Notes under the pieces: generated by a model | What the model was told of the DNA's origin: nothing | Databases searched by the model: none | Seen by the model: the letters and a program-made list of their open reading frames with translations, nothing else | Position numbers and translations under genes: made by a program | Assembly: GCF_040958095.1 (NCBI RefSeq) | Contig: NC_091228.1 | Span: forward strand, 9,002,340-9,066,339 | Direction: 5' to 3' | DNA: 64,000 nt | Origin: Procambarus clarkii | Lineage: Eukaryota; Arthropoda; Malacostraca; Decapoda; Cambaridae | Part shown: positions 2,386 to 52,875 of the stretch, one piece after another | Position numbering within the stretch: the first letter of the stretch is position 1 | How the letters are laid out: each line of letters opens with the position of its first letter

Positions 2386-2574
2386 CTATATTAGAGCTTT
2401 CAGGTTTCGCACTCGCTATCCTTTCTCTCCTCTTTCTTTCACAGTATTTATAGTCGTCGATCTGAGAGCCGAGCCATCGTCCCACATCAAAACTTCCAGC
2501 AAAGTTGAACACTGCTTCCAGGGAAATGGGGTCAGGGTTTACTGCCAGCAGCTCTGTGCTTCTGTCTACCACTC
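2386..2574 (-). CDS. A2M: Alpha-2-macroglobulin exon (MG6)
   Basis: The acceptor reads CCCAG|GAGTGG; the two exon bases complete a glycine codon begun in the exon at 2782-2956. The peptide starts VVDRSTELLAVNPDPI and continues FAGSFDVGRWLGSQIDDYKYC. In A2M proteins the MG6 segment has the same pattern (C-x-L-x-x-V-D-x-S-x-x-L). The likely donor is ATAG|GTTGGT, giving 189 bp and ending in phase 1. A stop lies further downstream, so the 3' boundary is less sure than the start. This is the leftmost A2M exon identified; bait region, thioester site and receptor-binding domain must lie beyond the window. Confidence 0.75.
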
Positions 2575-2781: not shown

Positions 2782-2956
2782 CCAGGCTACACACAGAGTC
2801 TGGCTCTGAGGAGAGGGACAGAGAGGCTTGTTCCCCAGGTTGTACGCGAGAAGCTGACCAAGTGAGGTTTACGGTGTTACTGAGGCACTTGTCCACCTCC
2901 AGCTCCCTCGAGTCCGCCACAACCTCCCCATCTTGACGGGTATACCACACCAACAC
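2782..2956 (-). CDS. A2M: Alpha-2-macroglobulin exon (MG5-MG6)
   Basis: Exon bounded by GCAG|GTGTTG and CCTGG|GTAAGT, 175 bp, phase 0 in and phase 1 out. It encodes VLVWYTRQDGEVVADS, then VDKCLSNTVNLTW and SEPDSVCSL. Family A2Ms carry the same succession: a beta strand with Y-x-x-x-x-G-x-V-x-x-D-S, a conserved N-C-L-x-N-x-V and S-V-C-A-L before the MG6 strand. The intron to the next exon is only 207 bp. Human A2M is an extracellular protease-trapping protein; arthropod homologues act in haemolymph immunity and clotting (family knowledge). Confidence 0.92.
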
Positions 2957-7742: not shown

Positions 7743-8147
7743 CTATAATAATAATTGTTTACTGACTAAACGTTATAATAATTATTGTTTACTGACTAAA
7801 CGTTATAATAATAATTGTTTACTGACTAAACGTTATAATAATAATTCTTTACTACTAAATGTTATAATAATAATTGTTTACTGACTAAACGTTATAATAA
7901 TAATTGTTTACTGACTAAACGTTATAATAATAATTGTTTACTGACTAAACGTTATAATAATAATTGTTTACTGACTAAACGTTATAATAATAATTGTTTA
8001 CTGACTAAACGTTATAATAATAATTGTTTATTGACTAAACGTTATAATAATAATTGTTTACTGACTAAACGTTATAATAATAATTGTTTACTGACTAAAC
8101 GTTATAATAATAATTGTTTACTGACTAAACGTTATAATAATAATTAA
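7743..8147. repeat. 30-bp minisatellite, about 13 copies
   Basis: Highly regular 30-bp units containing TAATAATAATTGTTTACTG and ACTAAACG. It ends about 15 bp from the donor of the MG4 exon at 8165-8308, but the unit does not include the splice site. Confidence 0.95.
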
Positions 8148-8164: not shown

Positions 8165-8308
8165 GTTAACTCTGTTGGTGTTGTAGACTGGCAAGACTGT
8201 TGTGAAGAGACCATCTGGTGCTATGGTCATGTTGGTGCAGCGACCAGCTGCACACACCTCCATGGGGACACCACCTGCCGGAGTGCCGTCTGGCTTCTCA
8301 GCCCTCAC
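8165..8308 (-). CDS. A2M: Alpha-2-macroglobulin exon (MG4)
   Basis: Bounded by TTGCAG|GTGAGG and GTTAAC|GTAAGT; 144 bp, exactly 48 codons, phase 0 on both sides. The peptide begins VRAEKPDGTPAGGVPMEV and includes CAAGRCTNMTIAPDGLF. It continues the MG4 strand of the preceding exon (PYSLK|VRAEKPDGTP); A2Ms have the pattern G-x-V-x-x-x-D-G-x-P-x-x-x-x-x-V followed by T-x-x-x-G-L-x-x-F. NMT is a possible N-glycosylation site. The next coding segment (about 90-100 residues) is not found in the following intron. Confidence 0.93.
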
Positions 8309-12178: not shown

Positions 12179-12394
12179 CTTGAGGGAGTAAGGAAGGTTC
12201 GGCTTCATGTAAGCGTCTTTGTAGATAGTTTTGAAGGTCACGGCGTTGCGGGTGATGGAGACTGAGGCGTCCTTTTTAATTCCTACTCCAGTACCTTCCT
12301 CAGTGACGATGGCCGATGCCTTGAAACTGTACACGTTGCAGTGAATGATCCTCAGCTCCGATGCCTGCACCTCCACTTCCTTACACCCGGAGAT
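12179..12394 (-). CDS. A2M: Alpha-2-macroglobulin exon (MG3-MG4)
   Basis: Bounded by TTGCAG|ATCTCC and CTCAAG|GTTGGT; 216 bp, exactly 72 codons, phase 0 both sides. The peptide begins ISGCKEVEVQASELRI and includes SAIVTEEGTG and RNAVTFKTIYKDAYMKPNLP. The E-E-G-T-G motif at the end of MG3 and the F-K-x-x-Y-K-P-x-L-P-Y opening of MG4 are typical of the A2M/TEP family. The donor is a weak GTTGGT. Confidence 0.95.
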
Positions 12395-13552: not shown

Positions 13553-14486
13553 AAATCACAGTAACACTGAGGTACTCACTGTAACACTGAGGTACTCACC
13601 GTAACACTGAGGTACTCACAGTAACACTGAGGTACTCACCGTAACACTGAGGTACTCACAGTAACACTGAGGTACTCACAGTAACACTGAGGTACTCACA
13701 GTAACACTGAGGTACTCACAGTAACACTGAGGTACTCACAGTAACACTGAGGTACTCACAGTAACACTGAGGTACTCACAGTAACACTGAGGTACTCACA
13801 GTAACACTGAGGTACTCACAGTAACACTGAGGTACTCACCGTAACACTGAGGTATTCACAGTAACACTGAGGTGCTCACAGTAACACTGAAGTACTCACA
13901 GTAACACTGAGGTACTCACAGTAACACTGAGGTACTCACAGTAACACTGAGGTATTCAAAGTAACACTGAGGTACTCACAGTAACACTGAGGTACTCCCA
14001 GTAACACTGAGGTACTCACAGTATCACTGAGGTACTCACAGTAACAATGAGGTACTCACGGTAACACTGAGGTACTCCCAGTAACACTGAGGTGCTCACA
14101 GTAACACTGAGGTACTCACGGTAACACTGAGGTAGTCACAGTAACACTGAGGTACTCACAGTAACACTGAGGTACTCACAGTAACACTGAGGTACTCACG
14201 GTAACACTGAGATACTCACCGTAACACTGAGGTATTCACCGTAACACTGAGGTACTCACGGTAACACTGAGGTACTCACAGTAACACTGAGTTACTCACG
14301 GTAACACTGAGGTACTCACAGTAACACCGAGGTACTCACGGTAACACTGAGGTACTCACAGTAACACTGAGGTACTCACAGTAACACTGAGGTACTCACC
14401 GTAACACTGAGGTACTCACAGTAACACTGAGGTACTCACAGTAACACTGAGGTACTCACAGTAACAATGAGGTACTCACCTTGAGG
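13553..14486. repeat. 20-bp splice-donor minisatellite, left part
   Basis: Near-perfect 20-bp units. Read on the minus strand each unit contains GTGAGTACCTCAG preceded by TTACG or TTACT, so many copies reproduce the exon|intron boundary GTTACG|GTGAGT of the A2M exon at 15705-15801. Interrupted by a SINE-related insertion at 14487-14757 and continued on the other side. Confidence 0.95.
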
Positions 14487-14757
14487 CTACCTTGAGGTGC
14501 TTCCGGGGCTTAGTGTCCCCGCGGCCCGGTCGTCGACCAGGCCTCCTGGTTGCTGGACTGATCAACCAGGCTGTTAGACGCGGCTGCTCGCAGCCTGACG
14601 TATGAGTCACAGCCTGGTTGATCAGGTATCCTTTGGAGGTGCTTATCCAGTTCTCTCTTGAACACTGTGAGGGGTTTGCCAGTTATGCCCCTTATGTGTA
14701 GTGGAAGCGTGTTGAACAGTCTCGGGCCTCTGATGTTGATAGAGTTCTTTCTACAGA
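14487..14757 (-). mobile_element. SINE-related insertion inside the 20-bp array
   Basis: GC-rich 270-bp insert. Its left end is the reverse complement of the tail of the SINE at 38.8 kb: both share a block with CGCGGGGACACTAA-like sequence, a GGCCTGGTCGA segment and the CCCCGAA end. Array units resume immediately after it. It may be a longer element that shares a 3' domain with that SINE. Confidence 0.7.
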
Positions 14758-15704
14758 GTACTCACAGTAACACTGAGGTACTCACAGTAACACTGAGGTA
14801 CTCACCGTAACACTGAGGTACTCATCGTAACACTGAGGTACTCACGGTAACACTGGGGTACCACAGTAACACTGAGGTACTCACGGTAACACTGAGGTAC
14901 TCACAGTAACACTGAGGTACTCACAGTAACACTGTGGTACTCACAGTAACACTGAGGTACTCACCGTAACACTGAGGTACTCACCGTAACACTGAGGTAC
15001 TCACAGTAACACTGAGGTACTCACGGTAACACTGAGGTACTCACGGTAACACTGAGGTACTCACGGTAACACTGAGGTACTCACAGTAACACTGAGGTAC
15101 TCACCGTAACACTGAGGTACTCACAGTAACACTGAGGTACTCACCGTAACACTGAGGTACTCACCGTAACACTGAGGTACTCACAGTAACACTGAGGTAC
15201 TCACAGTAACACTGAGGTACTCACGGTAACACTGAGGTACTCACCGTAACACTGCGGTACTCACCGTAACACTGAGGTACTCACAGTAACACTGAGGTAC
15301 TCACGGTAACACTGAGTTACTCACCATAACACTGAGGTACTCACGGTAACACTGAGGTACTCACAGTAACACTTAGGTACTCACAGTAACACTGAGGTAC
15401 TCACGGTAACACTGAGGTACTCACGGTAACACTGAGGTACTCACGGTAACACTGAGGTACTCACAGTAGCACTGAGGTACTCACAGTAACACTGAGGTAC
15501 TCACAGTAACACTGAGGTACTCACGGTAACACTGAGTTACTCACCATAACACTGAGGTACTCACGGTAACACTGAGTTACTCACCGCAACACTGAGGTAC
15601 TCACAGTAACACTGAGGTACTCACCGTAACACTGAGGTACTCACGGTAACACTGAGTTACTCACCGCAACACTGAGGTACTCACCGTAACACTGAGGTAC
15701 TCAC
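14758..15704. repeat. 20-bp splice-donor minisatellite, right part
   Basis: Same units as at 13553-14486, running without a gap into the donor of the A2M exon at 15705-15801. The real donor (ACG|GTGAGTACC) is the first unit of the array. Since 20 is not a multiple of three, use of a later donor would shift the frame and meet a stop. Confidence 0.95.
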
Positions 15705-15801
15705 CGTAACGTTGTTGGTGACGTCCAACTTGCACTTCCTTCTCTGGGTGTTGTCCAGAGTCAGTGACAGGTTGCCCTTAACCGGTTGTCCGAAGGTGTA
15801 G
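15705..15801 (-). CDS. A2M: Alpha-2-macroglobulin exon (MG3)
   Basis: Acceptor TTTACAG|CTACACC; the first base completes the AA| left by the exon at 27381-27538, giving VCAN-YTFGQPVKGNLS. A2Ms have C-x-x-Y-T-Y-G-x-P-V-x-G at this place in MG3. The exon continues DNTQRRKCKLDVTNNVT and ends GTTACG|GTGAGT, 97 bp, phase 0 out. NVT is a possible N-glycosylation site. The donor is repeated about 90 times downstream. Confidence 0.92.
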
Positions 15802-15825
15802 CTGTAAACAACCATGACAGGTTAG

Positions 15826-16100
15826 ACACGCACCAGGAAGGTCTCACGGACACGTGCACAACAGTAAACAGACACGCACCAGGAGACTCTCACGGACACG
15901 TGCACAACAGTAAACAGTCACGCACCAGGAGGCTCTTACGGACACGTGCACAACAGTAAACAGACACGCACCAGGAGGCTCTCACGGACACGTGCAAAAC
16001 AGTAAACAGACACGCACCAGGAGGCTCTCACGGACACGTGCACAACAGTAAACAAACACGTTCCAGGAGGCTCTCACGGACACGTGCATAGCGTGATGTC
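15826..16100. repeat. 46-bp minisatellite, about 6 copies
   Basis: Units of about 46 bp containing CACGCACCAGGAGGCTC and CACGTGCACAACAGTAAAC. The array begins some 25 bp intronward of the MG3 exon's acceptor. Confidence 0.9.
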
Positions 16101-20761: not shown

Positions 20762-20973
20762 TTTTATTTCTAGTCTGACGGGACACTTGAGCGCGTTTCG
20801 TAAAACTTATTACATTTTCAAAGACTTTAGTTAACACATACACAACTGAATAGAACTTACACATCTCCGATTTTGTTTATATCTACATTTGAGTGAGGTG
20901 GATGGGGTGAGGTGGTATTTAATAAGGTATTAATTTCATCAACACAAGCCAGAACATGAAACAATGGGTATTG
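20644..20973 (-). mobile_element. PLE 5' pseudo-LTR (330 bp)
   Basis: Partner of 17944-18273. It supplies the first ~39 codons of the polymerase ORF and a hammerhead-like motif at 20773-20825 whose stem III has one mismatch (CGCG/CCCG). It abuts a different PLE in the opposite orientation at 20974. Confidence 0.9.
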
Positions 20974-27380: not shown

Positions 27381-27538
27381 TTGGCGCACACGGTGAAGGT
27401 GAAGGCTTCGTCAGTGCCCAGGATGTAGGCGGGAGGCTTGAGCACCACCTCGTAGCGAGGCAGCACGAACTCCTCCACCTTGTAGGTCACACTCTGTTGT
27501 TGGCCCCGGGGCGTCTTCACGAACAGCGTGTACAATCC
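27381..27538 (-). CDS. A2M: Alpha-2-macroglobulin exon (MG2-MG3)
   Basis: Acceptor TTGTCAG|GGATTG, donor GCCAA|GTGAGC; 158 bp, phase 0 in and 2 out. The peptide is GLYTLFVKTPRG then VTYKVEEFVLPRYEV and GTDEAFTFTVCA(N). V-E-E-(F/Y)-V-L-P-x-(F/Y)-E-V is the hallmark MG2/MG3 junction of A2M and TEP proteins. GC-rich compared with its intron. A G-run 10 bp past the donor is unusual. Confidence 0.96.
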
Positions 27539-34800: not shown

Positions 34801-34917
34801 CTTCTCGGGCTCGTCAGCGAGGTCGAAGTCGAGGTGGACGAGGCCGGCGGTGTTGTCGACGTTCTTCCACTGGGCGACGCGGGTGCCGGCCGGCGTCTGC
34901 ACCCAGACCTTCGGGTA
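34801..34917 (-). CDS. A2M: Alpha-2-macroglobulin exon (MG2)
   Basis: Acceptor CCGGCAG|TACCCG, donor GAGAAG|GTGAGA; 117 bp, 39 codons, phase 0 both sides. It encodes YPKVWVQTPAGTRVAQW, then KNVDNTAGLVHLDFDLADEP. A2M family members have the same succession (V-x-x-P-x-G-x-R-(V/I)-A-Q-W, then a G-L strand and S-x-E-P). Strongly GC-rich. It joins in frame both to the exon ending ...STDP and to GLYTLFVK. Confidence 0.96.
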
Positions 34918-35028: not shown

Positions 35029-35142
<114 letters not shown>

Positions 35143-35150
35143 GACCACGG

Positions 35151-36806
35151 AAGAAGAATTGAAACAGGAATTTCCTTAAGTATTTTCGTATTAATACATC
35201 TTCAGAAGGAGTGATTTACAGGTCAAGAATTTTACATATATAGGCAGGAGAGAGTGGTGGAGTGAGGTGAGGTACAATGACAAATGAATGGGAATTAGGT
35301 GGACACAAATATGAGCCGCATGAGAACTGCAGAAGGCCTATTGGCCAATACGAGGCATCTCCTATTCATACCCACCAATGGACCCACACATGGATAATAA
35401 TAGCATAAGATAGTAAATATTTACAATGAATTAGTGAGACAAATGTGTATCAATGATCCTACTCAAATCGCCCTCTAATTGATCTATCGAAAATGGATCC
35501 AAGTTATATAAACCACTGCTAACGTTCAAATTACTTTCTTTTGTAATCTGTGGCAAAGCAGATTCAATTATGTTATTGTTATAAGTGCTTTTACAATTCA
35601 TTATTGAAGAAGCCATCTCCCAATCAATTTGGTGAGCATCTGCTGACAGATGAACAAACAAAGCATTAGACAATTGGCCGTGTCTTACAGAGTATTTATA
35701 TTGCGAAATTCTACATTTCAAATTTTTAGATGTTTGCCCAACATAGAATTTATTACAGTCTTTACAATGTATTTTATATATGACACAATTATCACTACGA
35801 GGACTGTTTCTAACTAATAGCTTACCAACAGTATTTTCGTAGCTAAACAATACATGTATATCAAAACGTTTCAAGGCCTTGACAATATTCTCAAACACAG
35901 AGAAATATGGTAAACATAACACATTCTTTGGGCGAATATTTTTTCTGCATATATTATTATAATATGTACGACGTGCTTTGCTACGGCAAACTTCCAAAAA
36001 ACTCAGTTGGTAACAAAGCTTGAGACCAATCGAATCAATATTCTTAAACTCTTCATCTAAGAATTCTGGACTCACAACTCGAAGAGCTCTTAGATACATT
36101 GAAGAAAAAATAGAGTTTTTTCACATTGTATCTATGCCTTGAAAAATAATGAACATAAGATAAATTATTCGTAGGTTTTCTGTAGATACTAAACTTTAGT
36201 GAAAAATTTTCCCTGTGAATAAGTACATCTAGGAATGGCAAACATTTATCAATTTCAGTCTCCACAGTAAATTTTATAGCGGTGACTTGATCATTAAAGT
36301 TTGGCTACAAATTCGTCAGTGTTTACATCTGTAGGCCATATACACAAAATATCAACAACATATCTAAACCATGGAATGATTCCAGGGGTAATTTTTGAGA
36401 CAAATTTCTTTTCGAAGAACTCCATGTACAAGTTTGAAAGCAATGGCGATAAAGGATTCCCCATTGCCATTCCAAAAGTCTGTAAATAATTCTCATTATT
36501 AAAGGTAAATGTACATTCTTTAATGCACAACTTAACAAGATTGACAATAATATCAGCAGAAAGAGGTAAAATATGATTCATTAGTTCACGAGCAAGATAA
36601 TCAAGAATATCATCAACCGGTACCTTTGTAAACAAAGAACAAACGTCAAAATTGATTAACTTTATATCAGGAGTAACAGGAATACTATTAAATTTGTTAA
36701 CTAATTCAAGAGAATTAGTCAAATGAGAAGAGGAAATAGTTCCTAACAATGGGGACAAGATTTTGGTGAGCCATATAGAAAGCTTGTAAGAAATGGATCC
36801 CACGGA
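35151..36806 (-). mobile_element. Third PLE family: 5'-truncated RT + GIY-YIG
   Basis: Three consecutive minus frames (36803-36294, 36265-36053, 36099-35431), displaced by two frameshifts, give one polymerase: LINFDVCSLFTKVP, FGMAMGNPLSPLLSNLYM, then RYVVD where YVDD is expected (first catalytic Asp lost to Val), LPFLDVLIH, FSIYRKPTN, and a GIY-YIG part CVIYKIHCKDCNKFYVGQTS. It begins in the segment just after the RPIIS motif and is inserted at the left edge of the 30-bp array in the A2M intron. Frameshifts plus the catalytic change mark it as dead. Confidence 0.88.
35173..35210 (-). ncRNA. Minimal hammerhead-like motif of the third PLE
   Basis: Minus strand: stem I TCCTT/AAGGA, core CTGAAGA (fits CUGANGA), a short stem II GTA/TAC with loop TTAA, then GAAA and, after a very short link, TT before stem I returns. 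Stem III is almost absent, as in the most reduced hammerheads. It lies in the 3' untranslated end of the element, where PLE hammerheads are expected. Confidence 0.45.
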
Positions 36807-37858
36807 ACTGGTCAGTAGAGACGTTGAGGTAACTCACCGGGTCAGTATAGAGATTGAGGTAACTCACTGGGTCAGTAGAGACGTAGTGGTAACTCACCGG
36901 GTCAGTAGAGACGTTGAGGTAACTCCCCCTGGTCAGTAGAGAGGTTGAGGTAACTCACCGGGTCAGTAGAGACGCTGAGGTAACTCACCGGGTTAGTAGA
37001 GACGCTGAGGTAACTCACCGGGTTAGTACAGACGCTGAGGTAACTCACCGGGTTAGTAGAGACGCTGAGGTAACTCACCGGGTCAGTAGAGACGCTGAGG
37101 TAACTCAACGGGTCAGTATAGAGATTGAGGTAACTCACCGGGTCAGCAGAGACGCTGAGGTAACTCACCGGGTCAGCAGAGATGCTGAGGTAACTCACCG
37201 GGTTAGTAGAGACGCTGAGGTAATTCACCGGGTCAGTAGAGACGCTGAGGTAACTCACTGGGTCAGCAGAGACGCTGAGGTAACTCACCGGGTCAGTAGA
37301 GACGCTGAGGTAACTCACCGGGTCCGTAGAGACGCTGAGGTAACTCACCGGGTCAGTAGAGATGCTGAGGTAACTCAACGGGTCAGTATTGAGATTGAGG
37401 TAACTCACCGGGTCAGCAGAGATGCTGAGGTAACTCACCGGGTTAGTAGAGACGCTGAGGTAACTCACCGGGTCAGTAGAGACGCTGAGGTAACTCACCG
37501 GGTCAGCAGAGACGCTGAGGTAACTCACCGGGTCAGTAGAGACGCTGAGATAACTCACCGGGTCAGTAGAGACGCTGAGGTAACTCACCGGGTCAGCAGA
37601 GACGCTGAGGTAACTCACCGGGTCAGTAGAGACGCTGAGGTAACTCACCGGGTCAGTAGAGACGTTGAGGTAACTCTCCGGGTCAGTAGAGACGCTGAGG
37701 TCACTCACCGGGTCAGTAGAGACGCTGAGGTAACTCACCGGGTCAGTAGAGACGCTGAGGTAACTCACCGGGTCAGCAGAGACGCTGAGGTAACTCACCG
37801 GGTCAGTAGAGACGCTGAGGTAACTCACCGGGTCAGTAGAGACGCTGAGGTAACTCAC
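36807..37858. repeat. 30-bp splice-donor minisatellite, about 35 copies
   Basis: Each unit, on the minus strand, is the last 24 nt of the MG1/MG2 exon (encoding YLSVSTDP) plus GTGAGT, the first 6 nt of the intron. The period is exactly 30 bp, so frame is kept and the minus strand is open from the exon through the array for over 390 codons. Use of any later donor would add multiples of ten residues (VSYLSVSTDP-like). Confidence 0.95.
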
Positions 37859-38097
37859 CGGGTCAGTAGAGACGCTGAGGTAAGGTCCGGTGAGAGTGAG
37901 GATCCTGAACTTGACATTCTGGCTGGGCTCGTACAGGTACTTGTCCGTCTGGACGAAGGTGATGTCGCTGGTGCTCTTGAGGGTGAGAGAAACGGTGCGG
38001 GTGAGCTTGGCGCCGCCCACCACGCCCGCCACGTGTAGTGAGTGGGTGTACACCGAGGAACTCGGCACCGACACGTCGTAGCACGAACCTGTCCTTC
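37859..38097 (-). CDS. A2M: Alpha-2-macroglobulin exon (MG1-MG2)
   Basis: Acceptor GTTCCAG|GAAGGA; two bases complete the codon left by the previous exon. It encodes RTGSCYDVSVPSSSV, LTRTVSLTLKSTSDITFV and QTDKYLYEPSQNVKFRIL, then LTGPYLSVSTDP. F-V-Q-T-D-K-x-x-Y-x-P-x-Q-x-V-x-F-R is the defining MG2 opening of A2M proteins. The first of many identical donors, GACCCG|GTGAGT, gives 239 bp ending in phase 0 and joins YPKVWV as expected; which donor is used in vivo is unknown. Confidence 0.95.
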
Positions 38098-38321: not shown

Positions 38322-38509
38322 CTGCTGGAATGTATAGAGTGGTCTGGGGAATGATGGTAATGTTCCGCTCCTCAGGCAGCTGCTGGTAGTCGTAGGCAGT
38401 GACTGCTACCGTCAGTTTCCCAGCTGGAGCTGACGGGTCGTCCACGACCACACACAGCTGGGCGGTTGTTCCTGCCTCCCACTGCTTGGGCGTGGTGACC
38501 ACGTAGCCT
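38322..38509 (-). CDS. A2M: Alpha-2-macroglobulin exon (MG1)
   Basis: Acceptor CCCACAG|AGGCTAC, donor CCAGCAG|GTTAGT; 188 bp, phase 2 in and 1 out, with a 224-bp intron to the next exon. It encodes GYVVTTPKQWEAGTTAQL, CVVVDDPSAPAGKLTV and RNITIIPQTTLYIPA. MG1 of A2Ms starts Y-x-V-x-x-P and contains G-x-x-x-x-x-C. The family's signal peptide should be encoded just upstream but no such exon was found in the window. Confidence 0.93.
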
Positions 38510-40812: not shown

Positions 40813-42198
40813 CCGTGTGTTGGGGGGGGGGGAGGGAGAGAGGAACGGTGTGTGGGGGAGACAGGAACGGTGTGTGGGAGGAGACAGGAACGGTGTGTGG
40901 AGGGAGACAGGAACGGTGTGTGTTGGGGGGAGACAGGAACGGTGTGTGGGGGGAGACAGGAACGGTGTGGGGGGAGACAGAAACGGTGTGTGGGGGAAAA
41001 GACAGGAACGGTGTGTGTGAGGGAGACAGGAACGGTGTGTGGAGAGACAGGAACGGTGTGTGGGGAGAGACAGGAAGGGTGTGTGGAGGGAGACAGGAAC
41101 GGTGTGTGTGGGGGAGAGAGAGGAACGGTGTGTGGGGAGAGACAGGAACGGTGTGTGTGGAGAGACAGGAACGGTGGGTGTGGGGGAGAGTCAGGAACGG
41201 TGTGTTGAGGGAGAGACAGGAACGGTGTGTGGAGAGGAGACAGGAACGGTGTGTGGGGGAGACAGGAATGGTGTGTGGGGGGAGAGACAGGAACGGTGTG
41301 TAGGGGAGACAAAAACGGTGTGTGGGGGGACACGAACGGTGTGTGGGGGAGAGACAGGAAAGGTGTGTGGTGGGGGAAGATAGGAACGGTGTGGTGGGGG
41401 GAGACAGGAACGGTGTGTGGGGGAGACAGAAAGGGTGTGTGTGTGGGGGGGGGGAGACAGGAACGGTGTGTGGGGGAGACAAGAACGGTGTGTGGGGAGA
41501 CAGGAACGGTGTGGGGTGGGGAAAGACAGGAACAGTGTGTGTGAGAGAGACAGGAACGGTGTATGTGGGAGACAGGAACGGTGTATGTGGGGGAGACAGG
41601 AACCGTGTGTGGAGGAGACAGGAACGGTGTGTGGGGGAGACAGGAACGGTGTGTGGGGGGAAGAGACAGGAACGGTGTGTGGGGGAGAGAGGAACAGTGT
41701 GGGTGGAAGAGACAGGAACGGTGTGTGGTGGGGAAAGACAGGAACGGTGTGTGTGGGAGAGACAGGAACGGTGTGTGGGGAGGGAGACAGGAACGGTGTA
41801 TGTGGGGGAGACAGGAACTGTGTGGGTGGGAGAGACAGGAACGGTGTGTGGTGGGGAACGACAGGAACGGTGTGTGTGTGGGAGACAGGAACGGTGTGTG
41901 GTGGGGAAAGACAGGAACGGTGTATGTGGGAGAGACAGGAACGGTGTGTGGGGGAGACAGGAACGGTGTATGTGGGGGAGACAAAAACGGTGTTGGGGGA
42001 GACAGGAACGGTGTGTAGGGGAGACAGGAACGGTGTGATGGGGAAGAGACAGGAACGGTGTATGGGCGGAGAAAAGAACGGTGTCTGGGGGAGACAGGAA
42101 CGGTGTGTGGGGGAGACAGAAATGGTGTGTGGGAGAGACAGGAACGGTGTGTGGGGGAGTCAGGAACGGTGTCTGGGTGAGACAGGAACGGTGTGTGG
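40813..42198. repeat. G-rich 21-bp minisatellite, first array
   Basis: Units of 19-25 bp with GACAGGAACGGTGTGTGGGG and a variable G-run, so length shifts by single G bases. The same motif forms arrays at 44.2, 44.9 (inverted), 45.8-46.4 (inverted), 47.1-49.1, 49.7-50.6 and 51.6-52.9 kb. All frames are open and none is a gene. Confidence 0.95.
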
Positions 42199-42781
42199 GT
42201 GTAAGAGTGCAAGTATTTTGCACTCTTTCATGTATAATTGTGAATTGTAATTGTGGGTGGGTGTGTGTATGTATGCGTATGTGCATGTTGGGGTTGTGCG
42301 AGATGGTATGAGGTGAGCTGTTGACTAGCTTCTATCCGCTGACATGGCATTACTTATCAAAGAGCCGGTTGTAGTGGCTTAGGAGAGTACGCACTCCTGG
42401 CTTGGCCAGCGAGGTGTGTTGAGCAGTGAGAGTGGAACCTTTGTAAGGGAGAGTACATCCAACCAGCTCCTCCATCCGGGTGGGAGATTAGCCATCATCC
42501 ATCCCTGGGTGACCTTGTTAGTGAGGTAAGAGTGTCAGTAATGCATTGTTTTAATTGAGTGTAGTAGTGTTGACGAGCTGGTGGAGTCTGAACCATTTAG
42601 CCATGTATGGTGTGGGCGTGTATGGAGAGGGTGATCCCCCCCACCTTTTAATTTGGTTAATATTGTATTAAATAATAGAATGTCAAAGTGTTAAATATCA
42701 ATTGATGGAAATTGAAAAAAATTGTTAATAAATTTCTATGTGTAGAAGAACAAGCTTGGCTTTTGTTTAGTCCTCTTTTTG
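42199..42781. repeat. Duplicated block B, copy 1
   Basis: About 580 bp beginning with a small hairpin (GTGCAA/TTGCAC) and ending after an AATAAA-type signal. A direct, closer-to-intact copy is at 49091-49675 and an inverted copy at 45205-45790. The ends resemble a TG-starting LTR, but this is not certain. Confidence 0.8.
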
Positions 42782-44151
42782 TGTAATAACCCATATCCAT
42801 TGTAATAACCCACTGACCTCTATGATCGTCTCTCGTGATCGTAATCGTTCGCTATCCCTGTTGTAATTCTCTTTCTCTCTTCACTCAATACCCCAGCTTA
42901 ACACTGTTACAGTCCAGTATGACCCCTCACTGAACTGCCACATATATCAGAGGAATATTAAATGAGGAAGATACATCAAGGACAAGGGGTATAAATTTAA
43001 AAAAAAAAATATAAAAATCATTAAACACTGCCACCACCTTCCCGACCAACCATATCTGAATGTGTCTATCACCGATCCCCCAGGAAGGCAAGGAATCAGT
43101 AATCATGGGACTCCCGGGTAATATGAATTTCAGTAATAAGTTTTGGGAAATTAGTTTGTTTAATTTACGTTACTTATTTAAATCCAAGGACAACTTTAGT
43201 ATCTATTAACTGTAGGAGAACATGGAAGTTTCCAATTCAACACATAAAAATGACAGAGTAGAGAAATATATCACAGGGGAGTTAAGTGAATACCACTGGA
43301 CAAGTTATACGATTTATTTTATGAAACATGTAAATTAAAACAATTTGAGCATATACCCTATTCTATTCTATTAACCTAGAGGCACAATGGATATCTACTG
43401 AGGACATGAGATTAAAGTGCACAATACCTTAATATCGCACTGAGGCCACGATGTTGATGGCTGCCCTCAGCCCCTAGGATGCGGGCTTGCGGCCCCTTTT
43501 ATTCCACACACTCCCGAGACACACTAATCAAATTTTATTTTACCAGCTTATTGCTGGGAAGGATTACTCCTCCCACCATCTAATACAGCCCCAGGGCTCC
43601 ACCCATTATTTTGGCAAAGGTCAACCATTTAACACTTAGGCCTGAGGTCTGGCTCTCTAGGGCCAATAAGGACTTGGCCCTTATCTCCCGCCAATCACCT
43701 TCCCTGATCTGCCGTGGAAGAATACATGAATTCCTGAAGATTTAGTCAGCTCTCCCCAGCTATTAGAAAGGAAACAAGGCGCCTCTGTGGAGCCCAGTGC
43801 ACCTGCGAGCAATGTTTACCAATTGATAAATTATGTTCAAGCCTGTCTTCTCCAAGATAAAGGGTAGGGACATTTGACTCGCCTGGTATGGGGAAGGGAA
43901 CGGTGAGAAGGGAAAGAGAGGGACTTGAGAGGGGGATGGAAAGGGGAAATCTGAGTGGGGGAAGTTGAGTTGGGGAAGCCAAAGGTATCACGAGGCAAGA
44001 CCACCCTCAGGTCAACCTCTTTGTCCTTGACAAATGGGCGACAGGGGGGGGGTGAAAGGGGGGAGACGAATGACGGCCAAGAAGAAAGGAGAAAGGGAGA
44101 AGGAAGGAGGGGAGAAGGGAGAACCAATGATCTGAGCCCCAGATCATTACA
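42782..44151. mobile_element. Solo-LTR-like insertion (1370 bp) with TTTG target duplication
   Basis: Starts TGTAATAACC and ends TCATTACA, flanked by TTTG on both sides (42778-42781 and 44152-44155). The uninterrupted site is seen at about 49673, where blocks B and C are contiguous. It contains no convincing ORF. TG...CA ends with a 4-bp duplication point to an LTR retrotransposon reduced to one LTR. Confidence 0.75.
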
Positions 44152-44410
44152 TTTGAATCAAAGTTCCCTCCAGTAAGAAATAAGGCTAGAGAGATATCTA
44201 GATGAACACGTGAGAGGTGGGGGAGACAGGAACGGTGTGTGGGGGAGACAGGAACGGTGTGGGGGGGGGAAGACAGGAATGATGTGTGGGGGAGACAGGA
44301 ACGGTGTGTGGTGGGAGAAAGGAACGGTGTTTATGGGAGACAGGAACGGTGTGGGGGGAGACAGAAGCGGTGTGTGTGGGAGACAGGAACGGTGTGGAGG
44401 GGTGACAGGA
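44152..44410. repeat. Duplicated block C and short G-rich 21-bp array
   Basis: Block C (about 65 bp, with GAGAGATATCTAGATGAACA) is followed by about nine G-rich units. The same order C then array occurs at 49676-50585, and inverted at 44880-45204. Confidence 0.85.
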
Positions 44411-44419
44411 ACACCTTAG

Positions 44420-44737
44420 TCAGTCGTCTCTTCTATTAGCCAGCCCCGGGTGCGGCGAATCCCGTTTCTGCCACTCCACAGGAAGACAGTAGAACACTTC
44501 ACAGTTCTCTTCCGGCGGCGGCTCACTGCTTCCGTAAAGCAGACTGGTGTAGTGATCTTGGCTGCCCAGGGTAGACTGACCTCGTATCACAGCAGCCCTA
44601 CGTCGGCTCTGTAAATACAGACACTTCATCAGTACACTGGGACACTAGGAAATAGCACTTACGGACCCTGCATAAACGTACACCTTTTCGCTCAATAAAT
44701 GCGCTGATTTTCTAGGCGCCACCTCAACAGAGGTCAG
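44420..44737 (-). pseudogene. Duplicated gene fragment D, inverted copy
   Basis: Reverse-strand copy of the spliced fragment at 50752-51069: a partial exon ending VYVYAGS at 44663, a 54-nt GT-AG intron (44609-44662) and a terminal exon (44420-44608) of 62 codons plus stop. Compared with the other copy there are a few replacements (STLGSQD for STQGSQG, QKRD for QRRD). Function not recognised. Frame and splice sites are kept in both copies, so the original was a real gene. Confidence 0.55.
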
Positions 44738-44879
44738 CCCCAGCTACCTCTCGAGTCTGGCTGGTATAGTCCTGTCACTAATAAATGGCGTCGTCCAAGT
44801 TGTGGAGGTTTCGGGAGCAGACTCACAGATGGCGTTGATGTCGCTGCTCCACGCTCCGACGGTAGAGTCGGGTTCGTTC

Positions 44880-45140
44880 GTTCCTATCTCTCATCCACAC
44901 ACCGTTCCTCTCTCTCCCCCACACACCGTTCGTCTCCCCTTACACCGTTCCTTTCTCCCCCCACACACCGTTCCTGTCTCTCCCCCACACACCGTTCGTC
45001 TCCCCTTACACCGTTCCTGTCTCCCCCCACACACCGTTCCTGTCTCTCCCCCTCACACCGTTCGTCTCCCCTTACACCGTTCCTGTCTCCCCCCACACAC
45101 CATTCCTGTCTCCCCTAAACACCGTTCCTGTCTCCCCCAC
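44880..45140. repeat. G-rich 21-bp array, inverted
   Basis: C-rich on the plus strand; contains the shortened unit with TCTCCCCTTACACCGTTC, which also occurs reversed at 49.8-49.95 kb, so the two arrays are copies of one another. Confidence 0.93.
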
Positions 45141-45790
45141 CTCTCACGTGTTCATCTAGATATCTCTTTAGCCTTATTTCTTACTAGAGGGAACTTTGAT
45201 TAAAAAAGATGACTAAACAATAGCCAAGTTTATTCTTCTACACACAGAAATTTATTAACAAATTATTTCAATTTCCATCAATTGATCTTTAACACTTTGA
45301 CATTCTATTATTTAATACAATATTGACCAAATTAAAAGGGGGGGGGGATCACCCACTCCATACACGCCCAAACCATACATAGCTAAATGGTTCCGACTCC
45401 ACTAGCTAGTCAACACTACTACACCCAATAAAGACAATGCATTACTGACACTCATACCTCACTAACAAGTTCACCCAGGGGTGGGTGATGACAAATTTAC
45501 CCGCCCGGATGTAGGAGCTGGTTGGATGTACTCTCCCTTGCAAAGGTTCCACTCTCACTGCTCAACACACCTCTTTGGCCAAGCCAGGAGTGAGTATTCT
45601 CCCAAGTCTCCACAACGGGCTCTTTGATAAGTACTGCCATGTCAGCGGATTGAAGCTAGTCAACACCTCACCTCATACCATCTCGCACCACCCCAACATG
45701 CACATACGCATATATACACACACCCACCCACAATTACAACTCACAATTATACATGAAAGAGTGCAAAATACTTGCACTGTTACACCCACA
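45141..45790. repeat. Duplicated blocks C and B, inverted copy
   Basis: Reverse complement of 49091-49742, with few differences. Here B and C are contiguous, confirming that the 1.37-kb element at 42.8 kb is an insertion. Confidence 0.9.
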
Positions 45791-46440
45791 CACCGTTCCT
45801 GTCTCCCGCAGACACCGTTCCTGTCTCTCCCACATACACCGTTCCTGTCTCCCCCACACACCGTTTCTGTCTCCCCCACATAAACCGTTCCGTTCTCCCT
45901 CAAACACCGTTCCTGTCTCTTCCCCCACACACCGTTTCTGTCTCCCCCACATACACCGTTCCTGTCTCCCCCACACACCGTTTCTGTCTCCCCCACATAA
46001 ACCGTTCCTGTCTCCCTCAAACAGCGTTCCTGTCTCTTCCCCCACACACCGTTCCTGTCTTCCCTACACACAGTTTCTGTCTCCTCCACACACAGTTCCT
46101 GTCTCCCCCACACACCGTTCCTGTCTCCCCCACACACCGTTCCTGTCTCCCCCACACACCGTTCCTGTCTCCCCCACACACCGTTCCTGTCTCCCCCACA
46201 CACCGTTCCTGTCTCCCGCACACACTGTTCTTGTCTCCCCCATACACTGTTCCTGTCTCTTCCCCAACACACTGTTCCTGTCTTCCCCACACACACCGTT
46301 CCTGTCTCCCACACACTCTGTTTCTGTCTCCCCCACACACACCGTTCCTGTCTCCCCCACACAGTTCCTGTCTCTCCCACACACACCGTTCCAGTCTTTT
46401 CTCACCACACACCTTTCCTGTCTCTCCTACACATACTACT
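45791..46440. repeat. G-rich 21-bp array, inverted
   Basis: Reverse complement of about 48.43-49.09 kb: the same succession of unit variants gives identical 237-residue readings on opposite strands, so this is a duplicated array segment, not an independent expansion. Confidence 0.95.
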
Positions 46441-46457
46441 CCTCCTACTGACACTCC

Positions 46458-47060
46458 TACTGTCTTCCTGTGGAGTGGCAGAAACGGGATTCGCCGCACC
46501 CGGGGCTGGCTAATAGAAGAGACGACTGACTAAGGTGCTGAAGAGGAGAGTAACCAGCGAGTTACACGAAGCTTCTGCCTAGGGCTTGCTACCCTAGTAT
46601 TTGCACGTGAAGTGGCCCAGCAACGCGAAGCTGAAGGTATCTGCCATCACCGGGCTGGACTGTGATTGTGGGCCTTCACGTGGAAGCTCTTAGTGAGACT
46701 GTGGTTTGGCTGGCCAGTGGCCAGGGGTAGACTCATTGTTTCCCGGTACCTGCTAAGGATCGTACTACGGATGAGGAAACACGATAGCTTACAAGACTGA
46801 AACGCCAGCATCGAAGAGCGCTTAGTGTTCCATGAGACGCTTTTGTACATATTAGGTGTACTAATTCTTTTGTTAGGATTATTTACGAGGTGATGGAAAA
46901 AGTTATCATATGTAAAAAATATCGACATTTTATGAAGTGTATTTTGTTTTACATGCATTACCGAGCTCACTCCTTGAAAGCCACTACTTACTTGGGACCG
47001 GATACCAGAACATTAGAACCACCCGAAAAGAACCCTGATGCGACCCATTGTGGCCGTAAC
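46458..47060 (+). pseudogene. Duplicated D end and E ORF, broken copy
   Basis: Direct copy of 51001-51605. It carries only the last 25 codons of fragment D (FYCLPVEWQKRDSPHPGL...), then the E region. The E frame has a TGA where the other copy has Trp (LQDW) and an indel upstream, so it is inactive. Confidence 0.6.
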
Positions 47061-49090
47061 AGGGGGGGGGACAGGAACGGTGTGTGGTGGGAGAGACAGG
47101 AACGGTGTGTGTGTGGGAGACAGGAACGGTATGTTGGGAGACAGGAATGGTGTGGGGTGGGAGACAGGAACGGTGTGGGAGAGAGAGAGGAACGATGTGG
47201 GGGGAGACTGGAACGGTGTGTGGATGAGAGACAGGAACGGTGTGTGGATGAGTGACAGGAATGGTGTGTGGATGAGAGACAGGAACAGTGTGTGGATGAG
47301 AGACAGGAACAGTGTATGGGGAAGGCAGGAACGGTGTGTGTTGGGGAAAGACAGGAACGGTGTGTGTGGGAGAGACAGGAACGGCGTGCGGTGGGAGAGA
47401 GGAACGGTGTGGGGGGAGACAGGAACGGTGTGTGGGGGAGACAGGAACGGTGTGTGGGGGGAGACAGGAATGGTGTGTGAGGAAGAGAGGAACGGTGTGT
47501 GTGGGAGAGACACAAACGGTGTGTGGGGGGAGAAAGGAACTATGTGTGGGGGAGAGAGGAACGGTGTGTGTGGGAGAGACAGGAACGGTGTGTGGGGGAA
47601 AGACAGGAACGGTGTTGGGGGAGACAGGAACGGTGTATGTGGGGGAGACAGGAACGGTGTATGGTGGGGGAAGACAGGAACAGTGTGTGTGGGAGAGACA
47701 GGAACGGTGTTGGGGGAGACTGGAACGGTGTTGGGGGAGACTGGAACGGTGTGTGGATGAGAGACAGGAACGGTGTGTGGGGGAGACAGGAACGGTGTGT
47801 GTGGGAGAGACAGGAACGGTGTGTGGGGGAGACAGGAACGGTGTGTTGTGGGGAAAGACAGGAACGGTGTGTGTGGGAGAGACAGGAACGGTGTGTGGTG
47901 GGGAAAGACTGAAACGGTGTGTATGGGAGAGACAGGAACTGTGTGGGGAAGACAGGAACGGTGTATGTGGGGGAGACAGGAACGGTGTGTGTGGGGGAGA
48001 CAGGAACGGTGTGTGTGGGGGGAGACAGGAACGGTGTGTGGGAGGACACAGGAACGGTGTGTGTGGGAGAGAGGAACGGTGTGTGGTGGGGAAAGACAGG
48101 AACGGTGTGTGTAGGAGAGACAGGAACGGTGTGTGGTGGGGAAAGACTGAAACGGTGTGTATGGGAGAGACAGGAACTGTGTGGGGAAGACAGGAACGGT
48201 GTATGTGGGGGAGACAGGAACGGTGTGTGTGGGGGAGACAGGAACGGTGTGTGTGGGGGGAGACAGGAACGGTGTGTGCGGGAAGAGACACGAACAGTGA
48301 GTGGTGGGGAAAGACAGAAACGATGTGTGGGGGGACACAGGAACGGTGTGTGGGGGAGAGAGAAACGGTGTGTGTAGGAGAGACAGGAACGGTGTGTGGT
48401 GGGGAAAGACAGGAACGGTATGTGTAGGAGAGACAGGAAAGGTGTGTGGTGAGAAAAGACTGGAACGGTGTGTGTGGGAGAGACAGGAACTGTGTGGGGG
48501 AGACAGGAACGGTGTGTGTGGGGGAGACAGAAACAGAGTGTGTGGGAGACAGGAACGGTGTGTGTGGGGAAGACAGGAACAGTGTGTTGGGGAAGAGACA
48601 GGAACAGTGTATGGGGGAGACAAGAACAGTGTGTGCGGGAGACAGGAACGGTGTGTGGGGGAGACAGGAACGGTGTGTGGGGGAGACAGGAACGGTGTGT
48701 GGGGGAGACAGGAACGGTGTGTGGGGGAGACAGGAACGGTGTGTGGGGGAGACAGGAACGGTGTGTGGGGGAGACAGGAACTGTGTGTGGAGGAGACAGA
48801 AACTGTGTGTAGGGAAGACAGGAACGGTGTGTGGGGGAAGAGACAGGAACGCTGTTTGAGGGAGACAGGAACGGTTTATGTGGGGGAGACAGAAACGGTG
48901 TGTGGGGGAGACAGGAACGGTGTATGTGGGGGAGACAGAAACGGTGTGTGGGGGAAGAGACAGGAACGGTGTTTGAGGGAGAACGGAACGGTTTATGTGG
49001 GGGAGACAGAAACGGTGTGTGGGGGAGACAGGAACGGTGTATGTGGGAGAGACAGGAACGGTGTCTGCGGGAGACAGGAACGGTGTGTGG
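47061..49090. repeat. G-rich 21-bp array, longest copy
   Basis: About 95 units; internally a block of about 230 bp is itself repeated (47.84-48.05 and 48.07-48.28 kb), showing larger-scale duplication inside the array. Confidence 0.95.
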
Positions 49091-49742
49091 GTGTAACAGT
49101 GCAAGTATTTTGCACTCTTTCATGTATAATTGTGAGTTGTAATTGTGGGTGGGTGTGTGTATATATGCGTATGTGCATGTTGGGGTGGTGCGAGATGGTA
49201 TGAGGTGAGGTGTTGACTAGCTTCAATCCGCTGACATGGCAGTACTTATCAAAGAGCCCGTTGTGGAGACTTGGGAGAATACTCACTCCTGGCTTGGCCA
49301 AAGAGGTGTGTTGAGCAGTGAGAGTGGAACCTTTGCAAGGGAGAGTACATCCAACCAGCTCCTACATCCGGGCGGGTAAATTTGTCATCACCCACCCCTG
49401 GGTGAACTTGTTAGTGAGGTATGAGTGTCAGTAATGCATTGTCTTTATTGGGTGTAGTAGTGTTGACTAGCTAGTGGAGTCGGAACCATTTAGCTATGTA
49501 TGGTTTGGGCGTGTATGGAGTGGGTGATCCCCCCCCCCCCTTTAATTTGGTCAATATTGTATTAAATAATAGAATGTCAAAGTGTTAAAGATCAATTGAT
49601 GGAAATTGAAATAATTTGTTAATAAATTTCTGTGTGTAGAAGAATAAACTTGGCTATTGTTTAGTCATCTTTTTTAATCAAAGTTCCCTCTAGTAAGAAA
49701 TAAGGCTAAAGAGATATCTAGATGAACACGTGAGAGGTGGGG
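49091..49742. repeat. Duplicated blocks B and C, copy 2
   Basis: Direct copy of 42199-42781 plus 44152-44218 without the LTR-like insertion. A 50-codon frame from 49236 (MAVLIKEPVVETWENTHSW) is closed by a stop in copy 1, so it is not supported as a gene. Confidence 0.9.
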
Positions 49743-50585
49743 GAGACAGGAACGGTGTTTAGGGGAGACAGGAATGGTGTGTGGGGGGAGACAGGAACGG
49801 TGTAAGGGGAGACGAACGGTGTGAGGGGGAGAGACAGGAACGGTGTGTGGGGGGAGACAGGAACGGTGTAAGGGGAGACGAACGGTGTGTGGGGGAGAGA
49901 CAGGAACGGTGTGTGGGGGGAGAAAGGAACGGTGTAAGGGGAGACGAACGGTGTGTGGATGAGAGACAGGAACGGTGTGTGAGGGGGAGACAGGAACGGT
50001 GTGTGGGGAGACAGGAACGGTAAGTGGGGGGGATGGAGACAGGAACAGTGTGGGGGTGAGAGAGGAACGGTGTGGGGGTGAGAGAGGAACGGTGTGGGGG
50101 GAGACAGGTACGGTGTGTGGAAGAGAGAGAAAGGAACGGTGAGTGGATGAGAGACAGGAACAGAGTGTGGATGAGAGACAGGAACGGTGAGTGGGGGGAG
50201 ACAGGAACGGTGTGTGGGGGAGACAGAAACGGTGTGTGGGAGAGACTGGAACGATGTGTGGGGGAGAGAGGAACGGTGTGTGTTGGAGAGACAGGAACGG
50301 TGTGAGGGGGGGGGTAGACAGGAACGGTGTTTGGGGAAGAGAGAAACGGTGTGTGTGAGAGAGACAGGAACGGTGTGTGGTGCGGGGAGACGAGGAACAG
50401 TGTGTGTGGGAGAGACAGGAACGGTGTGTGGTGGCGAAAGGCAGGAACAATGTGTGTGGGAGAGACAGGAACGGTGTATGCGCAGAGACAGGAATGGTGT
50501 ATGTGTGGGAGACAGGAATGGTGTGGGGGGGGACAGGAAAGGTGTGTGGGAGAGAAAAAACGGTGTGAGGATGAGAGACAGGAAC
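49743..50585. repeat. G-rich 21-bp array
   Basis: About 40 units between block C and fragment D; the inverted counterpart at 44.9-45.1 kb holds only about 12, so array length changed after duplication. Confidence 0.94.
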
Positions 50586-50751
50586 GAACGAACCCGACTC
50601 TACCGTCGGAGCATGGAGCAGCGACATCAACGCCATCTGTGAGTCCGCTCCCGGAACCTCCACAACTTGGACGACGCCATTTATTAGTGACAGGACTATA
50701 CCAGCCAGAAATGCTAGATTCTTGTCCTAGTAGCTCGAGAGGTAGCTGGGG

Positions 50752-51069
50752 CTGACCTCTTGTGAGGTGGCGCCTAGAAAATCAGCGCATTTATTGAGCG
50801 AAAAGGTGTACGTTTATGCAGGGTCCGTAAGTGCTATTTCCTAGTGTCCCAGTGTACTGATGAAGTGTCTGTATTTACAGAGCCGACGTAGGGCTGCTGT
50901 GATACGAGGTCAGTCTACCCAGGGCAGCCAAGGTCACTACACCAGTCTGCTTTACGGAAGCAGTGAGCCGCCGCCGGAAGAGAACTGTGAAGTGTTCTAC
51001 TGTCTTCCTGTGGAGTGGCAGAGACGGGATTCGCCGCACCCGGGGCTGGCTAATAGAAGAGACGACTGA
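50752..51069 (+). CDS. Unrecognised gene fragment D (two exon pieces, 54-nt intron)
   Basis: Frame EVAPRKSAHLLSEKVYVYAGS ends at 50826 before GTAAGT; a 54-nt intron ends TTTACAG at 50880; the next exon starts SRRRAAVIRGQST, includes SLLYGSSEPPPEENCEVFY and CLPVEWQRRDSPHPGL, and stops TGA at 51069. Base composition is coding-like and the structure is conserved in the inverted copy at 44.4-44.7 kb. The 5' part is missing: an upstream in-frame TAG lies near 50740. It may be a captured host gene end or a cargo gene of a mobile element; no family is recognised. Confidence 0.45.
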
Positions 51070-51201
51070 CTAAGGTGCTGAAGAGGAGATTAACCAGCGA
51101 GTTGCACGAAGCTCCTGCCTAGGGCTCGCTACACTAGTATTTGCACATGAAGTGGCCCAGCAACGCGAAGCTGAAGGTATCTGCCAGCACCGGGCTGGAC
51201 T

Positions 51202-51435
51202 GTGATTGTGGGCCTTCACGAGGAAGCTCTTAGTGAGCTGTGGTTTGGCTGGCCCGTGGCCAGGGGTAGACTCACTGTTGTTTCCCGGTACCTGATAAGG
51301 ACCGTTCTACGGATGAGGAAACATGATAGCTTACAAGACTGGATCGCCAGCATCGAAGAGCGCTTAGTGTTCCATGAGACACTTTTGTACATATTAGGTG
51401 TACTAATACTTTTGTTAGGATTATTTACGAGGTGA
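51202..51435 (+). CDS. Unrecognised small ORF E with C-terminal membrane segment
   Basis: A 77-codon frame. The last part is HDSLQDWIASIEERLVFHET followed by LLYILGVLILLLGLFTR, a hydrophobic segment of about 15 residues ending three residues from the stop, typical of a tail-anchored or C-terminally anchored protein. The copy at 46.6-46.9 kb is broken. The true start is uncertain; it could be a final exon. It could be the end of an envelope-like or other membrane protein of a mobile element. Confidence 0.35.
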   Translation: MIVGLHEEALSELWFGWPVARGRLTVVSRYLIRTVLRMRKHDSLQDWIASIEERLVFHETLLYILGVLILLLGLFTR

Positions 51436-51605
51436 TGGAAAAAGTTATCATATGTAAAATATATCGACATTTTATGAAGTGTATTTTATTTTACTTGCAT
51501 TGCCAAGCTCACTCCTTGGAAGCCACTACTTACTTGGGGCCGGATACCAGAACTTTAGAACCACCCGAAAAGAACCCTGTTGCGACCCATTGTGACCGTA
51601 ACAGG

Positions 51606-52875
51606 GGGGGGGACAGGAACGGTGTGTGGTGGGAGAGACAGGAACGGTGTGTGTGTGGGAGACAGGAACGGTGTGTGGGGGAGAGAGGAACGATGTGTGT
51701 GGGAGAGACAGGAACGGTGTGTGTAGGGGGAAGACAGGAACGGTGTGTGTGGAAAAGACAGGAACGGTGTGTGGGGGGAGACAGGAATGGTGTATGTGGG
51801 GGAGAGAGGAACGGTGTGTGTGGTGGGAGACAGGAACGTTGTGTGGGGGGAGACAGAAACGGTGTGTGGGAGAGACAAGAACGGTGTGTGGGGGAAGGAG
51901 GAACGGTGTGTGTGGGAGAGACAGGAACGGTGTGTGTAGGGGAGACAAGGAACGGTGTGTGTGTGGGAGAGACAGGAACGGAGTTTGGTGGGAGAGACAG
52001 GAACGGAGTTTGGTGGGAGAGACAGGAATAATGTGTGGTGGATGGGAGACAGGCACGGTGTGGGGGGAGAAAGAAATGGTGTGTGGATGAGAGACAGGAA
52101 CGGTGTGTGTAAGGGAGACAGGAACGGTGTGTGGGGGAGACAGGAACGGTGTGTGGGGAAGACAGGAACGGTGTGTGAGGGTGACAGGAACAGTGTGTGG
52201 AGGGAGACAGGAACGGTATGTGGATGAGAGACAGGAACGGTGTGTGGGTAAGAGACAAGAACGGTGTGTGGATGAGAGACAGGAACGGTGTGTGGGAGAG
52301 ACAGGAACGGTGTGCGGGGGAGACTGAAACGATGTGTGGGGGAGACAGGAACGGTGTGTAGGGAAGGCAGGAACGGTGTGTGGGGGGGAGAGAGAAACGG
52401 TGTGTGTGGGAGAGACAGGAACGGTGTGTGGTGGGAGGAGACAGGATCGATGTGTGTGGGAGGGACAGGAACGGTGTGTGGTGGGGGAAGACAGGAACGG
52501 TGTTTGGGGGAGAGAAAGAAAAGGTGTGTGGTGGGGGAGACAGGAACGATGTATGTGGGAGAGACAGGGACGGTGTGTGTGTGGGGGAGACAAGAACGGT
52601 GTGTGGGGGAGAGGCAGGAACGGTGTGTGGGGGAGATACAGGAACGATGTGTGGGGAGAAAGGAACGGTATGGGGTGCGAGACAGGAACGGTGTGTGGGG
52701 GGGGGAGACTGGAACGGTGTATGTGGGGGAGACAGGAATGGTGAGGGGGGAGACAGGAACGGTTGGTGGGGGGAGATTCAGGAACGGTGTGTGGGGGAGA
52801 CAGGAACGATGTGTGGCGGAGACAGGATTGGTATGTGGGGAGAGAGGAACGGTGAGTGGTGGGGAAAGACAGGAT
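51606..52875. repeat. G-rich 21-bp array, last copy
   Basis: Begins after the same CGTAACAGGGGGGGG junction as the array at 47061, so block E plus array start is part of the duplicated unit. It passes into a different array at 52876. Confidence 0.94.

Follow-up and report, generated by a model that had tools for sequence, protein, structure and literature searches.

Tandem repeats that carry a splice donor are known from human genes. In the interferon-induced gene 6-16 (G1P3/IFI6), Turri, Cuin and Porter are said to have shown in 1995 that the donors of an in-frame minisatellite with a 12-bp unit are used. For intron 18 of human ABCA7, PMC5954066 describes a 25-bp variable number tandem repeat (VNTR) that includes the exon 18 donor and is repeated 23.7 times in the reference; besides canonical splicing, the transcripts described there may retain one unit or skip exon 19, the alternative transcripts jointly outnumber the canonical one in 90% of BA10 brain samples, and VNTR length is associated with expression and with alternative splicing. 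Two further papers report introns gained when AGGT segments are duplicated in tandem, with fission-yeast genes that have several 24-bp copies cited (PMC4974935), and tandem repeats located where the exons and introns of human paralogs meet (PMC2812944). In this study we analysed 64,000 nucleotides of the crayfish Procambarus clarkii (contig NC_091228.1, positions 9,002,340 to 9,066,339; hereafter the window), where the end of one exon of an alpha-2-macroglobulin (A2M) gene, together with the start of the following intron, is repeated 36 times in tandem. This array belongs to the same known kind of junction minisatellite as those of human ABCA7 and 6-16/IFI6, in that tandem consensus donors derive from a real exon end and the donor of the first unit is the canonical one. 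Its interesting part is the recurrence within one gene, since a second array of like build lies at another exon of the same gene copy. Among the open-licence papers that our literature searches listed, none was seen to describe donor arrays in genes of crayfish or other decapods.

The likeness to the described systems is close in some respects and limited in others. The 6-16/IFI6 minisatellite is an in-frame precedent for the crayfish array; the two differ in unit length, sequence, gene and phylum, and donor usage was reportedly shown for 6-16/IFI6. As in ABCA7, the crayfish minisatellite adjoins an exon and includes its donor, and in ABCA7 splicing also makes use of a second donor that lies one unit farther downstream (PMC5954066). 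However, the ABCA7 unit starts at the donor GT and one retained unit breaks the frame, while the crayfish unit includes 25 nt of coding sequence and keeps it, and donor usage has been measured for ABCA7. With the intron-gain systems (PMC4974935 and PMC2812944) the crayfish locus shares tandem duplication involving splice signals, but here the array lengthens an existing intron and no new intron is shown.

The host gene lies on the minus strand and is, judged by its exon translations, part of an A2M gene, as the first-pass annotation of this DNA had recognized. The translations exceed the Pfam cut-offs for PF01835 (MG2; 54.2 bits, cut-off 32.8), PF17791 (MG3; 27.1, cut-off 23.1) and PF07703 (A2M_BRD; 50.1, cut-off 22.7), with the MG4 exon reaching only 14.8 against 24.7, and they match human A2M chains in the PDB by sequence (best E 6.9e-5). 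The nearest proteins are the P. clarkii A2M proteins P0001 and P0002, with 97% and 95% identity over 234 residues. The array occupies positions 36803-37883 of the window and consists of 36 units, a degenerate last one included, of which 35 measure 30 bp and one 31 bp; Tandem Repeats Finder (TRF) places it at 36810-37883 with a period of 30, 35.8 copies and a score of 1803. Its unit, TTACCTCAGCGTCTCTACTGACCCG/GTGAG (a slash marks the exon-intron border), equals the final 25 nt of the MG1/MG2 exon plus the initial 5 nt of its intron. The same composition had been proposed before as 24 plus 6 nt, which is equivalent because a T is shared. Unit 1 (37883-37854) overlaps the end of this 239-nt exon (37859..38097), and the canonical donor GT follows directly after base 37859. 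The annotation had placed about 35 units at 36807-38097; the array is real, but 37884-38097 is plain MG1/MG2 exon outside it. Nor is there a donor in every unit, as had been claimed: CCCGGTGAGT is present in 28 of the 36, with GACCCGGTGAGT occurring 23 times and GTGAGT 30 times. The donor array far exceeds chance; GTGAGT occurs 129 times on the minus strand of the whole window and 14 times on the plus strand. The units fall into 18 types; 11 units are identical to unit 1, and most units contain CTCAG or CTCAA. Units 32-36 carry an indel and up to five changes; units 17 and 26 are equally diverged, with six and five, so there is no clean divergence gradient along the array. Unit 32 is the 31-bp unit (36923..36953), which has no donor and shifts the frame.

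The coding properties of the array are as follows. The exon frame stays open through the array until just past unit 32 and then meets stops, so that the earlier description of stop-free 30-bp units fits the sequence up to that point and fails behind it, where the frame is shifted. An array free of stops says little in any case, because only 2 of the 90 possible single changes in the unit create a stop, 66 being nonsynonymous and 22 silent. Among the first 31 in-frame units we counted 16 substitution types, 12 nonsynonymous and 4 synonymous, a pattern as neutrality predicts. GGTGAG is kept in 28 of the 36 units. For 26 of these, splicing to the next exon would preserve the frame and meet no stop, unlike for the other two, which lie past the 31-bp unit. 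The proposal that any of some 35 donors could serve in frame may hold for 26 of them. The donor core makes up 6 of the 30 sites and takes 6 of the 43 substitutions counted in the 34 units that are left when the 31-bp unit and the degenerate last unit are set aside; its conservation is not significant (P 0.22).

Comparison with related proteins indicates which donor is canonical. The junction holds no repeat copy in 35 of the 36 A2M-like proteins retrieved, as judged by pattern in 30 and by alignment in five (P0008, P0010, P0012, P0030 and P0041), whose junction gaps are at most 4 residues; in relatives the junction reads TDP/YP. This absence of a repeat copy identifies the donor of unit 1 as the ancestral and canonical one. 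The 36th protein, P0013 from Cherax quadricarinatus, uses the same exon end; it was considered as a sign of repeat use at the junction and rejected, for it merely skips the next exon. In our reading the P0013 model also carries, at each flank, a fused stretch of unrelated sequence that resembles a retroelement. Repeat-directed protein searches, each of which scored about 8000 candidates sharing most words, found no A2M bearing the repeat, and one of them returned five weak matches with E 0.13 or worse. P0032, which has four repeat-like words, proved to be an unrelated protein of 278 residues (PF04024).

The second array lies at 13556..15710, also on the minus strand, and has a 20-bp unit, GTTACG/GTGAGTACCTCAGT, in 107.5 copies by TRF, with 84 GTGAGT; the two arrays together hold 114 of the 129 minus-strand GTGAGT of the window. 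It starts within the last 6 nt of exon MG3b (15705..15801), whose end, AACAACGTTACG/GTGAGTACCTCAGT, leads straight into the repeat. The unit length of 20 bp cannot be divided by three, and the MG3b frame runs into a stop seven codons past the exon (39 residues from 15800). Being out of frame and with stops, this array can add no notable protein segment, and it thus provides an internal control showing that such arrays arise without coding use. In 63 of its 84 donors the G at -1 has been lost. Donors of this kind have a computed U1 pairing energy of -6.6 to -6.9 kcal/mol, compared with -10.5 kcal/mol for the first donor. Between the 20-bp and the 30-bp unit there is an unexplained similarity that exceeds the similarity of GTGAGT-preserving shuffles (p 0.0016). 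A 46-bp array at 15824-16088 has its near edge 23 nt upstream of the MG3b acceptor, and the 97-nt exon MG3b is flanked by arrays on both sides.

Based on these results, we consider it probable that the MG1/MG2 array is a minisatellite seeded at the junction, which expanded near-neutrally and is spliced mainly at its first donor with some slippage. It would have been born by a tandem duplication across the exon-intron junction, taking in the 25 nt of exon end and 5 nt of intron start, in a Procambarus A2M paralog, and would then have grown towards the intron under almost no selection, most units taking the 5' splice site with them. Most transcripts are most likely spliced at the first of these donors, which lies at the true exon end, since it alone yields the conserved TDP/YP junction. 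Low-level use of donor 2, donor 3 and a few later ones is probable, each of them bringing in ten further residues (VSYLSVSTDP) that would be tolerated as noise. The same build at a second exon of the same gene copy suggests a repeated DNA-copying accident and not a protein-varying device. The array is more readily understood as a by-product. Some observations, however, weigh against this account. The computed U1 pairing energy equals that of the first donor (-9.4 kcal/mol) in 27 of the 30 GTRAG donors of the 30-bp array, so that pairing strength gives the first donor no advantage. Because the protein collection was clustered at 90% identity, it could conceal isoforms that have a few additional units. 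In addition, the excess of alternative transcripts described for ABCA7 (PMC5954066) implies that slippage in the crayfish array could be large.

The gene model against which the alternatives are weighed consists of nine minus-strand exons, placed by tblastn of P0002 and by splice sites. Upstream of the MG1/MG2 exon lies MG1 (38322..38509). The array-bearing intron is closed by the acceptor GGCAG/TACCCG of the next exon (34801..34917; YPKVWVQTPAGTRVAQW...), which starts at 34917 with YPKVW, and this is followed by MG3a (27381..27538), MG3b, MG3/MG4 (12179..12394), MG4 (8165..8308), BRDa of the bait-region domain (2782..2956) and BRDb (2386..2574). All nine have GT/AG ends, and their joined frame is open, also across a gap that corresponds to P0002 residues ~410-536. 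For these ~127 conserved residues we found no exons between 8165 and 2956, and no signal-peptide exon was found in the window, although a short exon is easily missed; the gene copy as placed here shows neither a complete MG4-MG5 stretch nor a secretion signal. The gene leaves the window after about residue 660, and its 3' half lies outside. Within the array-bearing intron, directly behind the array, lie pieces of a Penelope-like element (35431..36794, minus strand, by Pfam), with RVT_1 in 36294-36794 at 28.5 bits, just below the cut-off of 29.6, and GIY-YIG in 35431-36120 above its cut-off. A (GA)54 tract on the sense strand at 35033-35140 stands ~115 nt upstream of the acceptor of this intron.

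The first-pass annotation had suggested that the array gives a possible length-variable insertion in the protein. On the view that this is its function, in-frame donors would be widely used, giving an A2M family whose members contain between 0 and 30 additional decapeptides in MG2, a number that might vary between individuals, and the 26 in-frame donors, the open nine-exon frame and a unit of 30 bp, a multiple of three, all agree with it. In an AlphaFold2 (AF2) single-sequence prediction of the exon-plus-array frame, two of five models showed confident beta strands in the array part, and in the best model the array blocks mostly reached a predicted local distance difference test (pLDDT) of 85-93 with the exon part under 50. 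However, AF2 is reported to yield confident but unrealistic beta-solenoids for repeats (PMC11795689), and for this reason we discount the beta model as a sign of a real fold. The units vary as neutral sequence would (12:4 against 66:22), the sister array at MG3b is out of frame and has stops, no retrieved A2M-like protein bears the repeat (35 of 36 being free of a copy at the junction), and the gene copy is without exons for ~127 residues and without a detected signal-peptide exon. We therefore reject protein diversification as the function and regard it as very unlikely. Another view holds that the array controls splicing, either by binding many U1 small nuclear ribonucleoproteins (snRNPs) or by having its donors masked by exonic CTCACCGG, with array length setting splicing efficiency or gene output. 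The 30 and 84 GTGAGT in two introns would suit such a role, as would the association of VNTR length with expression and alternative splicing in ABCA7 (PMC5954066). So would the exonic 8-nt CTCACCGG itself (37887..37894; 37894-37887 on the minus strand), a possible hairpin partner that is the exact reverse complement of CCGGTGAG, present 28 times in the array, and the junction fold of -14.6 kcal/mol as RNA. But the antisense match has a p of 0.008 before correction for nine donors, the fold as DNA has a z of -1.60 with 11 of 200 shuffles as good, no comparable pairing is seen at MG3b (5 nt, p 0.33), the loss of the -1 G leaves 63 of the 84 donors there with weak pairing, and donor sites are not significantly conserved. 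A hairpin at the MG1/MG2 junction may have aided the first duplication or may mask donors, both of which are guesses, and we think it improbable, to about the same degree as diversification, that the array governs splicing.

A different question is whether this gene copy still makes anything functional. If it were a dead or dying duplicate, the array would be irrelevant to any protein, and this is compatible with the origin by junction duplication that we favour. The missing exons for P0002 residues ~410-536 and the lack of a signal-peptide exon in the window point that way. So does the P. clarkii model P0001, which is also without this stretch (P0002 residues ~289-536 as aligned) and shares with the window gene a read-through before exon MG1. 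On the other hand, the nine exons keep their GT/AG ends and a joint frame that is open across the gap, residues 289-408, which are absent from the P0001 model, do have exons in the window, the gene extends past the window, and a short first exon could have escaped detection. The copy may be a degenerate duplicate; that it is dead or dying seems to us a serious possibility, though somewhat short of an even chance. A near-neutral junction minisatellite, spliced mainly at the first donor, remains our preferred explanation of the array itself.

The two arrays are part of a repeat-rich region. The window contains 30 tandem arrays, which cover 38% of it, in a list condensed by hand from TRF output. 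An array edge lies within 30 nt of the donor at four of the nine donors, namely at -24 nt for MG1/2, -5 for MG3b, 14 for BRDb, where a 29-bp array (1791-2372) begins past the donor, and 20 for MG4, which is followed by a 30-bp array (7744-8145). Such proximity has a P of 2e-5 to 5e-5 against intronic positions, a value to be read with the knowledge that the pattern was seen before it was tested, in one gene and with a hand-condensed list. The arrays at MG1/2 (p 0 of 2000) and MG3b (p 0.008) are derived from their junctions. We rejected the idea that all four donor-adjacent arrays are donor-derived, as the MG4 and BRDb flanks match their arrays no better than random stretches do (p 0.40 and 0.12). 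Elsewhere in the window, a Penelope-like element with an 836-residue open frame lies in an A2M intron at 18296-20806 on the minus strand. RVT_1 and GIY-YIG matches, some below the Pfam cut-off, are found both there and at 35431-36794. Upstream of the gene, 40834-52874 holds numerous arrays that belong to a single family (GGGAGACAGGAACGGTGTGTGG) and lie on either strand.

We speculate, and hold it to be rather unlikely, that 5' splice sites are hot spots of minisatellite birth in the crayfish genome, through donor slippage coupled to transcription or hairpins, so that many genes would carry dozens of competing near-identical donors. If this were true, it would offer a natural test bed for the choice of the spliceosome among many equal donors. 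At the locus described here, should transcripts draw on 28 nearly identical donors spaced at 30 nt, the array and its 84-donor neighbour would directly demonstrate how donor choice follows from position alone; exclusive use of the first donor would make the locus an example of how readily decoys are tolerated in splicing. Were arrays of this sort to occur at donors throughout decapod genomes, the birth of minisatellites would be tied to exon ends, and crayfish gene models and copy-number studies would have to allow for them.
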